The position numbers and the translations under genes are program-made. A stretch of DNA of 64,000 nucleotides, from assembly GCA_002282015.1 (NCBI GenBank), contig NCIJ01000001.1, forward strand, positions 372,001-436,000. Reading direction: 5' to 3'. Position 1 is the stretch's first letter; every line of letters begins with the position of its first letter. This stretch comes from Sulfuricurvum sp. 17-40-25 (GTDB taxonomy: Bacteria; Campylobacterota; Campylobacteria; Campylobacterales; Sulfurimonadaceae). This document shows, piece by piece, positions 49,999 through 53,077 of the stretch. Below the pieces are notes generated by a model that saw only the letters and a program-made list of their open reading frames with translations, ran no database searches and had not been told where the DNA came from.

Positions 49999-50175
49999 AT
50001 GCAAAAAATCAATTGTCACAAATGTACCTATTATTTTGTCACATGGGAAGCCCATCAACCCCACGGGTGCAAAGCATATGGGTTTAAAAGTAAATTTCTT
50101 CCCTCACAAGTCGTTTTGAGTTCCAGCGGAAAGCCCTGCAGTTTTTTTACCTCTAAATTTCCCGATTCCAAATAA
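49999..50175 (+). CDS. Small cysteine-containing protein of 58 aa
   Basis: Short gene with ATG at 49999 and TAA at 50173-50175. It reads MQKINCHKCTYYFVTWEAHQ ... PHGCKAYGFKSKF ... GKPCSFF and ends SKFPDSK. Four Cys (C6, C9, C24 and a late one) suggest a small zinc or metal site. From memory similar proteins occur widely in Campylobacterota and are sometimes named as uracil-DNA glycosylases, which this length excludes. The next gene to the right is on the opposite strand and overlaps by 23 bases. The function is unknown. Confidence 0.7.
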   Translation: MQKINCHKCTYYFVTWEAHQPHGCKAYGFKSKFLPSQVVLSSSGKPCSFFTSKFPDSK

Positions 50176-50569
50176 GCTTTTTTCCAAATCCTAACGTATT
50201 GTCGGTCATTTTGACCCGATACAGTTGAATCTTCCACAACTTCGGGTTCATAGCAAGCGCATACGGAAACCGTTTGAGATAAAGAGTTCTTTGAGCTTCA
50301 TCTTCTACGGCAGATATCTCTCCCGCAAACTGTATCCCTTGAATTTTTCCCACAATTTTTGTCTCTTGCGCTATAGTCCCTGCCACACGTTTATCCATAT
50401 TGGTATTTTGGATATGGAGTGTTTGCTCATCCGATGCTATGATAAATGCATCCGACTCTTTATCAAAAGCATAAAACGCCGAGCAACACCATAAGGAATC
50501 TCCAAACGTTGCCAGGGAGAGTAGGTGATGTTTGGAAATAAATTTCCCTATAGGCTCATCCATAGCCAT
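50153..50569 (-). CDS. PNPOx-fold (pyridoxamine phosphate oxidase-like) protein, YhbP type
   Basis: 138 aa from ATG at 50569, favoured by a GGAAAAA ribosome site; ATG at 50563 and GTG at 50584 are alternatives. The segment HLLSLATFGDSLWCCSAFYAFDKESDAFIIASDEQT fits the split-barrel flavin fold, with AGTIAQETKIVGKIQGIQFAGE in the second half. Such proteins bind FMN, F420 or haem; the cofactor is not clear. It begins 14 bases inside the end of the PatB-like lyase gene, so it belongs to the same operon as that lyase and the OvoA-like gene. Confidence 0.8.
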   Translation of the reverse strand: MAMDEPIGKFISKHHLLSLATFGDSLWCCSAFYAFDKESDAFIIASDEQTLHIQNTNMDKRVAGTIAQETKIVGKIQGIQFAGEISAVEDEAQRTLYLKRFPYALAMNPKLWKIQLYRVKMTDNTLGFGKKLIWNREI

Positions 50570-51731
50570 TTTTTTCCAAGGCACGTGACAGCTGCTCCAA
50601 TGCCCTCACCAATACTTCACGCGCAACTGCAAAGTTCAGACGCATAAACCCCGATCCCTCTTTGCCAAAACTAAGCCCGGCACTTAATCCAAGCCCCGCT
50701 TCATTTACAAAAAAGTTCCGTAATTCTCGATCACCCATTTTCAATGCGCGACAATCCAACCATGCCAAATAGGTACCTTCTGGCTTGCGAAATCCGATGA
50801 CAGGATGTCCAGCACACCATTGCTCAATCATCCTTCTGTTTGCATTCAAATGCTCCATCAAATTCTTATGCCACGTATGCCCTTGCGCATATGCCGCTTC
50901 AAAAGCTACATGCGATAGCACTGCTCCATCTCCAAAATGCATTTTATGCTGTTCGCTCCGATAACGTTCACGTAATACGGATGATGCGATGATTACCGTA
51001 GAGATTGAAAATCCAGCCATGTTAAACGTCTTTCCAGGTCCTATCAGCGTCACTGTACTTTCACTCAGTTTTTGCGATAGTGAGGCCAAAGGAATATGCT
51101 TATTTTCACTAAATACAATATCACAATGTACCTCATCACTGATTATGATAATACCCTTTTGAGTACACAACTCTCCAAGAGAAAGTAACTCTTCACGTGA
51201 CCAAACACGGCCCACCGGATTATGAGGAGAACATAATAATAAAAGTTTTGTGTTAGGAGTAATCTTCGCCTTTAAGTCTTCCAAATCGAAGCGATACTCT
51301 CCCTGATCATCGTGAACCAGAGGATTAAGAACCAGCTTTCGATTATTATTGCGAACCATGTCATAAAACGGCGGGTAAACGGGACTTTGCACAATGACTT
51401 CATCCCCTTCATCGCTAAACGCTCTAATAGCGCATCCGATCGATGCCACGACCGAGGGAGAATAACTCAACCAATCTACCTCAATTTTCCACGCATGATT
51501 ATGCTCTACCCAGTCGCACTGTGCTTTATAGGCTTGTTCACGCATGATTTCATAGCCTATGATCGGATGTTCTAGTCGATGACGTACCGCATCCAAAATG
51601 CACGAAGGTGTTGCAATATCCATATCCGCAACCCACATCGGCATAACATCATTCGTGCCAAAAAGCTTTTGTTTCAGGGTATGCTTTTCGGCATTACTGT
51701 CTGTACGATCTATAAAACCGAATTCATCCAT
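50556..51731 (-). CDS. PatB/MalY-type PLP-dependent C-S lyase, candidate OvoB
   Basis: 391 aa fold-type I aminotransferase-like lyase. PLP Lys234 lies in GPGKTFNMAGFS. The DEVH (199-202) Asp contacts PLP nitrogen, and CSPHNPVGRVW holds the substrate-binding Asn. The N-terminal MPMWVADMD is typical of cystathionine beta-lyase PatB/MalY. It probably cleaves C-S bonds of cysteine conjugates to pyruvate, ammonia and thiol. Its start overlaps the OvoA-like stop (TAATG), so it is translationally coupled. This makes it a good candidate for the sulfoxide lyase (OvoB) that converts the OvoA product to 5-thiohistidine; that role is inference. Confidence 0.87.
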   Translation of the reverse strand: MDEFGFIDRTDSNAEKHTLKQKLFGTNDVMPMWVADMDIATPSCILDAVRHRLEHPIIGYEIMREQAYKAQCDWVEHNHAWKIEVDWLSYSPSVVASIGCAIRAFSDEGDEVIVQSPVYPPFYDMVRNNNRKLVLNPLVHDDQGEYRFDLEDLKAKITPNTKLLLLCSPHNPVGRVWSREELLSLGELCTQKGIIIISDEVHCDIVFSENKHIPLASLSQKLSESTVTLIGPGKTFNMAGFSISTVIIASSVLRERYRSEQHKMHFGDGAVLSHVAFEAAYAQGHTWHKNLMEHLNANRRMIEQWCAGHPVIGFRKPEGTYLAWLDCRALKMGDRELRNFFVNEAGLGLSAGLSFGKEGSGFMRLNFAVAREVLVRALEQLSRALEKNGYG

Positions 51732-53077
51732 TAATCAACCACATAGCGAAACCCTGCATGCTGTATGAAATGGCGTCTAAACGCATAGCGTGAAGCTCTC
51801 ACAACTTCATTTCCTGTTGAGATCCAAGAGCCCCCTTTGAGCATATTATGTTTTGTATCAAAAGTAGGAGTTGAAAAATCATCATACAGTGGATGCGGTG
51901 CGAACCCTTCAAAACCATCCATAGGGCTACTCGTCCATTGCCACACATTTCCAACAGCATCGTAAACTTTACCATGAAAGAATGTATCCACAGGCACAGA
52001 TGATGCAAAATGCGCCAAATTGATGTTTGCAGTCATATCGTCAAATATATCACTCACTATGCCACATTGATCAAGTAAAACTCCATATTCCGCTTCCGTT
52101 GGAAGACGAATGTTCATCCCATCTTGAGCACTTTTCCATCGACAAAAAGCCTGCGCTTCCAGAGCATTTACCTCTACAGGCCAATTGTACGGCATCGCTA
52201 TTTCCTGAGTTAGAGAACGGTACGTGTAACTGCCATCTTCTTTAGGTATCCAGAAGGGAGGGCATGTCGCATTACGAATGGATAAGTATTTTAATCCCTC
52301 ATCATCCCACCAACGTTGTATCCCATATCCATTAGCATTAACAAAGTCCAAGTATTCCCCGTTACTTACCAGATAAAGGGATGCTTCAAAATCATCTACG
52401 TTATACGTAGCAGTTCCGTACTCATTATCCCACCCATATAACCCTTTGTCCGTATCACCTTTCCCCAGCGTAATGGTTGCACCCGCAATCGCTACCAACG
52501 TATTTTTAAGTCCATCACCGCTTAGTGGGCACAAGGGAAAGTTATCGTGGCTTTGAATCAACTCCAGAGGCATCTGACGATGTAAAACACTGGACGTTTC
52601 TATATGTATACGCTCATGTTCACAGCCCATGAGTATTGCCCAAAAAGGATCAGTCTGTCTAATCGGGAGGGTAAGTGGTAGCTTCATAATAAGTTCATCT
52701 ACACAGATACGAACTGCTTTACGATACTCACGTACCGTATCAACCCCAAAACCTTCAAAGTACTCATTCATATTATCCCAGATCATCTCATCAACCCCCA
52801 CCGCAAAAAGCGCTTCAAAACGTGGGTTGATTCCCTCATTTAATGCACCGCTTAAAACAAGTTTGTTGATATAAAAAACAGCGGTATGCCCAAAATAAAA
52901 AATCATAGGATGACGTGTGGGTTCAGGTTGTTCATAAAAAACTGCATCCGATTCAAACAGTTCAAACAATGACTCAAAAAGATCAAAGCCTTGATGAAAA
53001 TAGCGACGTATTTCACTGCGCTTCTCTTCTACATTCAACCCCTCTAAATTGATGGATCGCATCTGTCTTATATTCAC
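51731..53077 (-). CDS. ovoA: 5-histidylcysteine sulfoxide synthase (OvoA), without the methyltransferase domain
   Basis: 448 aa from a GTG start (SD GAGG eight bases upstream). It matches the OvoA core: DinB-like N-terminal domain with YFHQGFDLFESLFELF, HPMIFYFGHTAVFYINKL (His64), GVDEMIWDNMNE and the iron ligands in EHERIHIETSS (His154, His158), then the formylglycine-generating-enzyme-like domain ending SRYAFRRHFIQHAGFRYV. Such non-haem iron enzymes join cysteine to C5 of histidine with O2. The usual C-terminal methyltransferase (about 250 aa, makes ovothiol) is absent, and no such gene is in the window. The downstream PLP lyase is coupled. EgtB is the main alternative, but the sequence follows OvoA. 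Confidence 0.87.
   Translation of the reverse strand: MNIRQMRSINLEGLNVEEKRSEIRRYFHQGFDLFESLFELFESDAVFYEQPEPTRHPMIFYFGHTAVFYINKLVLSGALNEGINPRFEALFAVGVDEMIWDNMNEYFEGFGVDTVREYRKAVRICVDELIMKLPLTLPIRQTDPFWAILMGCEHERIHIETSSVLHRQMPLELIQSHDNFPLCPLSGDGLKNTLVAIAGATITLGKGDTDKGLYGWDNEYGTATYNVDDFEASLYLVSNGEYLDFVNANGYGIQRWWDDEGLKYLSIRNATCPPFWIPKEDGSYTYRSLTQEIAMPYNWPVEVNALEAQAFCRWKSAQDGMNIRLPTEAEYGVLLDQCGIVSDIFDDMTANINLAHFASSVPVDTFFHGKVYDAVGNVWQWTSSPMDGFEGFAPHPLYDDFSTPTFDTKHNMLKGGSWISTGNEVVRASRYAFRRHFIQHAGFRYVVD

Follow-up and report, generated by a model that had tools for sequence, protein, structure and literature searches.

Three overlapping genes at the ovoA locus

The window analysed here (64,000 nucleotides of the Sulfuricurvum sp. 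17-40-25 genome) carries a unit of three genes, which encode an OvoA-type protein, a PLP-dependent C-S lyase and a YhbP-like protein (Table 1). The ovoA reading frame opens with a GTG codon, and its TAA stop shares base 51731 with the ATG start of the lyase gene, which bears out the TAATG junction noted previously. In profile searches, the OvoA protein matched positions 2-444 of the 444 positions of the TIGR04344 model with 615.5 bits (cut-off 400), whereas the EgtB and SenA models scored 150 and 144 bits, under their respective cut-offs of 360 and 420; its nearest structure in the PDB is the fused OvoA 8khq (511 bits). The initial annotation had described an OvoA rather than an EgtB, ending at residue 448 without a methyltransferase and with its iron ligands present. 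This description held: the chain stops two residues past the end of the TIGR04344 match, Pfam returned DinB_2 and FGE-sulfatase and no C-terminal methyltransferase domain, and four histidines of the DinB domain (H56, H64, H154 and H158), which are candidate iron ligands, are invariant in the alignment rows of 44 relatives. The protein differs from a canonical bifunctional OvoA, in which the methyltransferase is fused in the same chain, as this domain is here encoded by a separate gene. By homology, it would be a 5-histidylcysteine sulfoxide synthase.

Table 1. Positions of the genes of the ovoA unit and of the stand-alone methyltransferase gene
Feature	Position	Strand or location	Supporting matches
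ovoA core, 448 aa	51731..53077	-	TIGR04344 615 bits; DinB_2 + FGE-sulfatase (Pfam); 8khq best in PDB
PatB/MalY-family PLP C-S lyase, probable OvoB	50556..51731	-	TIGR04350 548 bits, cut-off 340; synteny
YhbP-like PNPOx split-barrel protein	50153..50584	-	NF002900 143 bits, under cut-off 176; fold matches
ovoM, stand-alone, 251 aa	G000:C35:4198-4953	other contig than operon	TIGR04345 312.8 bits
ADP-ribosylglycohydrolase-family gene (PF03747)	G000:C35:4966-6039	same strand as ovoM, directly upstream	

The PDB matches of the lyase are PatB and cystathionine beta-lyases. Because lyases of the PatB family act on many substrates, a role as OvoB rests on the linkage to ovoA; judged from family and operon together, the enzyme would release 5-thiohistidine, in line with its earlier description as an OvoB-like lyase. 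The third gene had been reported to overlap the lyase gene. The overlap is real; its extent is 29 nt from the annotated GTG start (50584) and probably 8-14 nt in fact, since relatives of the protein begin at its residue 6 or 8, which would place the true start at 50569 or 50563. Although the score of the protein against the YhbP equivalog model (NF002900) is too low to assign it to that family, its proposed PNPOx-like fold was recovered: PNPOx_N was detected in 23 of 24 relatives, and Foldseek matched its AlphaFold model (pLDDT 87) to heme, flavin and F420 proteins of the PNPOx fold.

The co-occurrence of the three genes was then surveyed. Nearly every Sulfuricurvum locus of sufficient length shows the order ovoA-patB-yhbP, which is also found in sister genera; such an arrangement is not expected by chance. 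A few Sulfuricurvum loci have an extra gene between the lyase and yhbP; this is a DUF4010 membrane protein gene in one locus (L122:8622-9896) and at the same place in L111, L117, L123 and L106. In another genome, G401, the OvoA core and the PatB lyase lie in one 795-aa frame (L109:574-2961) from which about the first 44 lyase residues are missing, so that a deletion or a misassembly is likelier than a true OvoA-OvoB fusion.

The YhbP-like protein, earlier suggested to be an extra reductase or sensor, might be devoted to the redox chemistry of thiohistidine. The gene adjoins ovoA-patB in Sulfuricurvum and in most of the sister-genus loci inspected, and solved relatives of its fold bind flavin, heme or F420; however, no such gene adjoins ovoA in the other families examined, and in several congeners the DUF4010 gene separates it from the lyase. 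A search of one collection of papers turned up none on YhbP or on OvoM. We regard this role, which concerns the third gene only and is compatible with an assignment of the first two to ovothiol synthesis with methylation in trans, as rather unlikely.

A stand-alone OvoM encoded elsewhere in the genome

Two end points had been envisaged for a unit devoid of a methyltransferase: either the pathway stops at 5-thiohistidine, or a separate methyltransferase completes it. A profile search of the whole genome of the window organism (2.3 Mb in 50 contigs, 99.99% complete) found no second OvoA, fused or otherwise, which rules out a fused enzyme elsewhere. The same genome yielded one strong match to the OvoA methyltransferase model TIGR04345 (G000:C35:4204-4929; 312.8 bits, cut-off 170), which is full length (model positions 1-242 of 242). 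The best PDB match of the corresponding protein is 9bxl (384 bits), titled 5-thiohistidine N-methyltransferase OvoM. Over 247 residues, this solved protein and the stand-alone protein of another Sulfuricurvum, G417, are 100% identical; the copy of the window organism belongs to the same family as the OvoM structures (PDB 9BXL, 9BXM and 9BXN) and has the same length, and the one difference found is in sequence, with 67.6% identity to 9bxl.

The second of the two end points is therefore the one supported for this organism, and the first is contradicted. A pathway stopping at unmethylated 5-thiohistidine would agree with the composition of the operon itself, which contains no methyltransferase, and with the many congeners that have none at all; yet the genome encodes a full-length OvoM, in which 66 of the 67 positions conserved across the intact methyltransferase domains of OvoA type are kept. 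With this gene present, we reject the idea that the window organism has lost methylation, and we consider it most improbable that its pathway ends at 5-thiohistidine.

The ovoM gene is unlinked to the ovoA-patB-yhbP operon and converges on dnaX. The arrangement dnaX-ovoM-ADP-ribosylglycohydrolase is found at the same spot in most OvoM-bearing congeners. Within Sulfuricurvum, the ADP-ribosylglycohydrolase is present in 16 of 20 OvoM-bearing genomes and in none of the 21 OvoM-less ones. The dnaX gene is present in these 21 genomes, in G403 as a fragment only, and in G409 (81% complete) the match is weak and probably unrelated; the pair was absent from the dnaX site in the OvoM-less genomes inspected. 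At dnaX, ovoM and the ADP-ribosylglycohydrolase gene behave much as a cassette would. In G176, the two proteins are encoded by one open frame of 613 aa (L139:3377-5218), which is possibly a fusion, or else reflects a stop codon lost in the draft genome.

Fused, truncated and separate methyltransferase domains

In the sister genera within the Sulfurimonadaceae, the operon is the same; it includes patB and often yhbP and adjoins the same yfiH and dxs genes. Their OvoA, like 8KHQ, shares the sulfoxide-synthase core of the window protein and differs from it in carrying a fused and intact methyltransferase domain, which the window organism would supply in trans; between this fused C-terminal domain and the OvoM of the window organism, identity is 55-58%. 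The OvoA core of Sulfuricurvum ends in one of three ways: without a tail, with a 24-residue tail, or with a truncated domain. The form without a tail defines the clade of the window organism, seven genomes, all of which carry OvoM. The proteins with a truncated domain, of about 640-675 aa, have kept the SAM motif and 26-29 of the 67 conserved positions and have lost the conserved block at the C-terminus. One genome, G419, combines a truncated fused domain with a stand-alone OvoM, and is plausibly an intermediate state.

In a tree of methyltransferase domains built from Campylobacterota sequences only, the OvoM proteins of Sulfuricurvum group in a single clade (100/99), which lies nearest to the fused domains of the family with moderate support (91/88 and 82/78). 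The presence of OvoM maps on the OvoA-core tree as five changes. Because the OvoM and OvoA trees conflict on some placements, for example those of G421 and G406, ovoM may have been exchanged within the genus. Two arrangements were observed in further genomes. G299, from another family, has a truncated fused OvoA domain (G299:C5:173496-174818) and a separate intact methyltransferase of 250 aa (G299:C4:164942-165655), and is a second, independent case of the split outside Sulfuricurvum. In G392 (L133), the methyltransferase domain of a fused OvoA is missing its middle SAM-binding segment through an internal deletion.

OvoA, an OvoB-type lyase and N-methylation constitute the three steps in the synthesis of the antioxidant ovothiol (PMC12631010). 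In the window organism, OvoA would join cysteine to the C5 of histidine as a sulfoxide, the PatB-type lyase would act as OvoB and free 5-thiohistidine, and OvoM, by homology to the solved enzyme of the same genus, would methylate the imidazole nitrogen in trans to yield ovothiol A. The fused domain would have decayed and then been lost in Sulfuricurvum, while methylation moved to, or stayed with, the stand-alone ovoM. We give this reading, that the window genes form the core of an ovothiol A pathway with OvoM in trans after loss of the fused domain in the genus, a probability of roughly 0.87. It agrees with the consistent presence of OvoM in the clade without a tail, with the orthologous operons of sister genera and with the intermediate G419; the distance of ovoM from the operon, the conflicting placements of some near relatives and the broad substrate range of PatB-family lyases speak against it. 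It is very unlikely that the OvoA core now makes something else, such as a C2 thiol or a seleno compound, with the methyltransferase acting on another substrate. EgtB-IV and SenA are indeed distant relatives of the same fold, but the OvoA model scores far above those of EgtB and SenA, both far under cut-off, and the nearest solved structure is by a wide margin an OvoA.

Bacterial OvoA-like proteins without the methyltransferase domain are on record (Brancaccio et al. 2021, as cited in the review PMC9103826); they have the same architecture as the window OvoA, and the summary in that review is silent on the whereabouts of the methyltransferase. As such proteins have been reported and a Sulfuricurvum OvoM structure is already available, the window case is of a known type, the ovothiol pathway with its methyltransferase in trans.

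Relatives that lack OvoM

Among 41 Sulfuricurvum genomes, TIGR04345 scored over its cut-off in 20 and not in the other 21. The latter comprise 17 genomes in which OvoA consists of the core alone or of core fragments and four with a truncated fused domain; as they include the near-closed G362 and G308, in 5 and 2 contigs respectively and each 100% complete, missing data are no general explanation. About half of the close relatives thus seem, from their gene content, to have dropped the methylation step. Across 397 Campylobacterota genomes, OvoA was over cut-off in 119 and TIGR04345 in 103 (three of these, G297, G346 and G392, match part of the model only). The 16 genomes that have OvoA but no intact methyltransferase, obtained as 119 - 103 on the assumption, consistent with the lists, that all TIGR04345 genomes carry OvoA, belong to seven genera: seven are Sulfuricurvum and nine fall in six others. 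An OvoB-type lyase gene lies beside every core-only or truncated OvoA inspected in the genus, and beside the four truncated ones inspected outside it.

An unrelated methyltransferase may serve the OvoM-less genomes. No alternative methyltransferase was seen beside OvoA in these congeners, and the gene inserted between the lyase and yhbP, considered as a substitute, encodes the DUF4010 membrane protein instead. The 5-thiohistidine end point, contradicted for the window organism, may hold for congeners without OvoM. That the OvoA core persists where methylation has gone suggests a use for 5-thiohistidine, or for another derivative, in its own right, and a 5-thiohistidine N-acetyltransferase route (PMC12631010) provides a precedent for a product other than ovothiol; no acetyltransferase gene was seen within the ovoA-patB-yhbP unit. 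We propose tentatively, at slightly less than even odds, that N-methylation was lost and the OvoA core kept in part of Sulfuricurvum and repeatedly elsewhere in Campylobacterota, with 5-thiohistidine or another derivative as the working metabolite.

Taken alone, the window organism would carry out ordinary ovothiol biosynthesis, and what merits further attention is that OvoM is kept so unevenly. Comparison within Sulfuricurvum makes it possible to ask why 5-thiohistidine is N-methylated at all, when many relatives seem to keep the first two enzymes and to drop or erode the third, and highlights an ADP-ribosylglycohydrolase gene that is gained or lost together with OvoM. If the loss of methylation is true, Sulfuricurvum would offer a natural setting in which to compare thiohistidine with and without the methyl group among close relatives.
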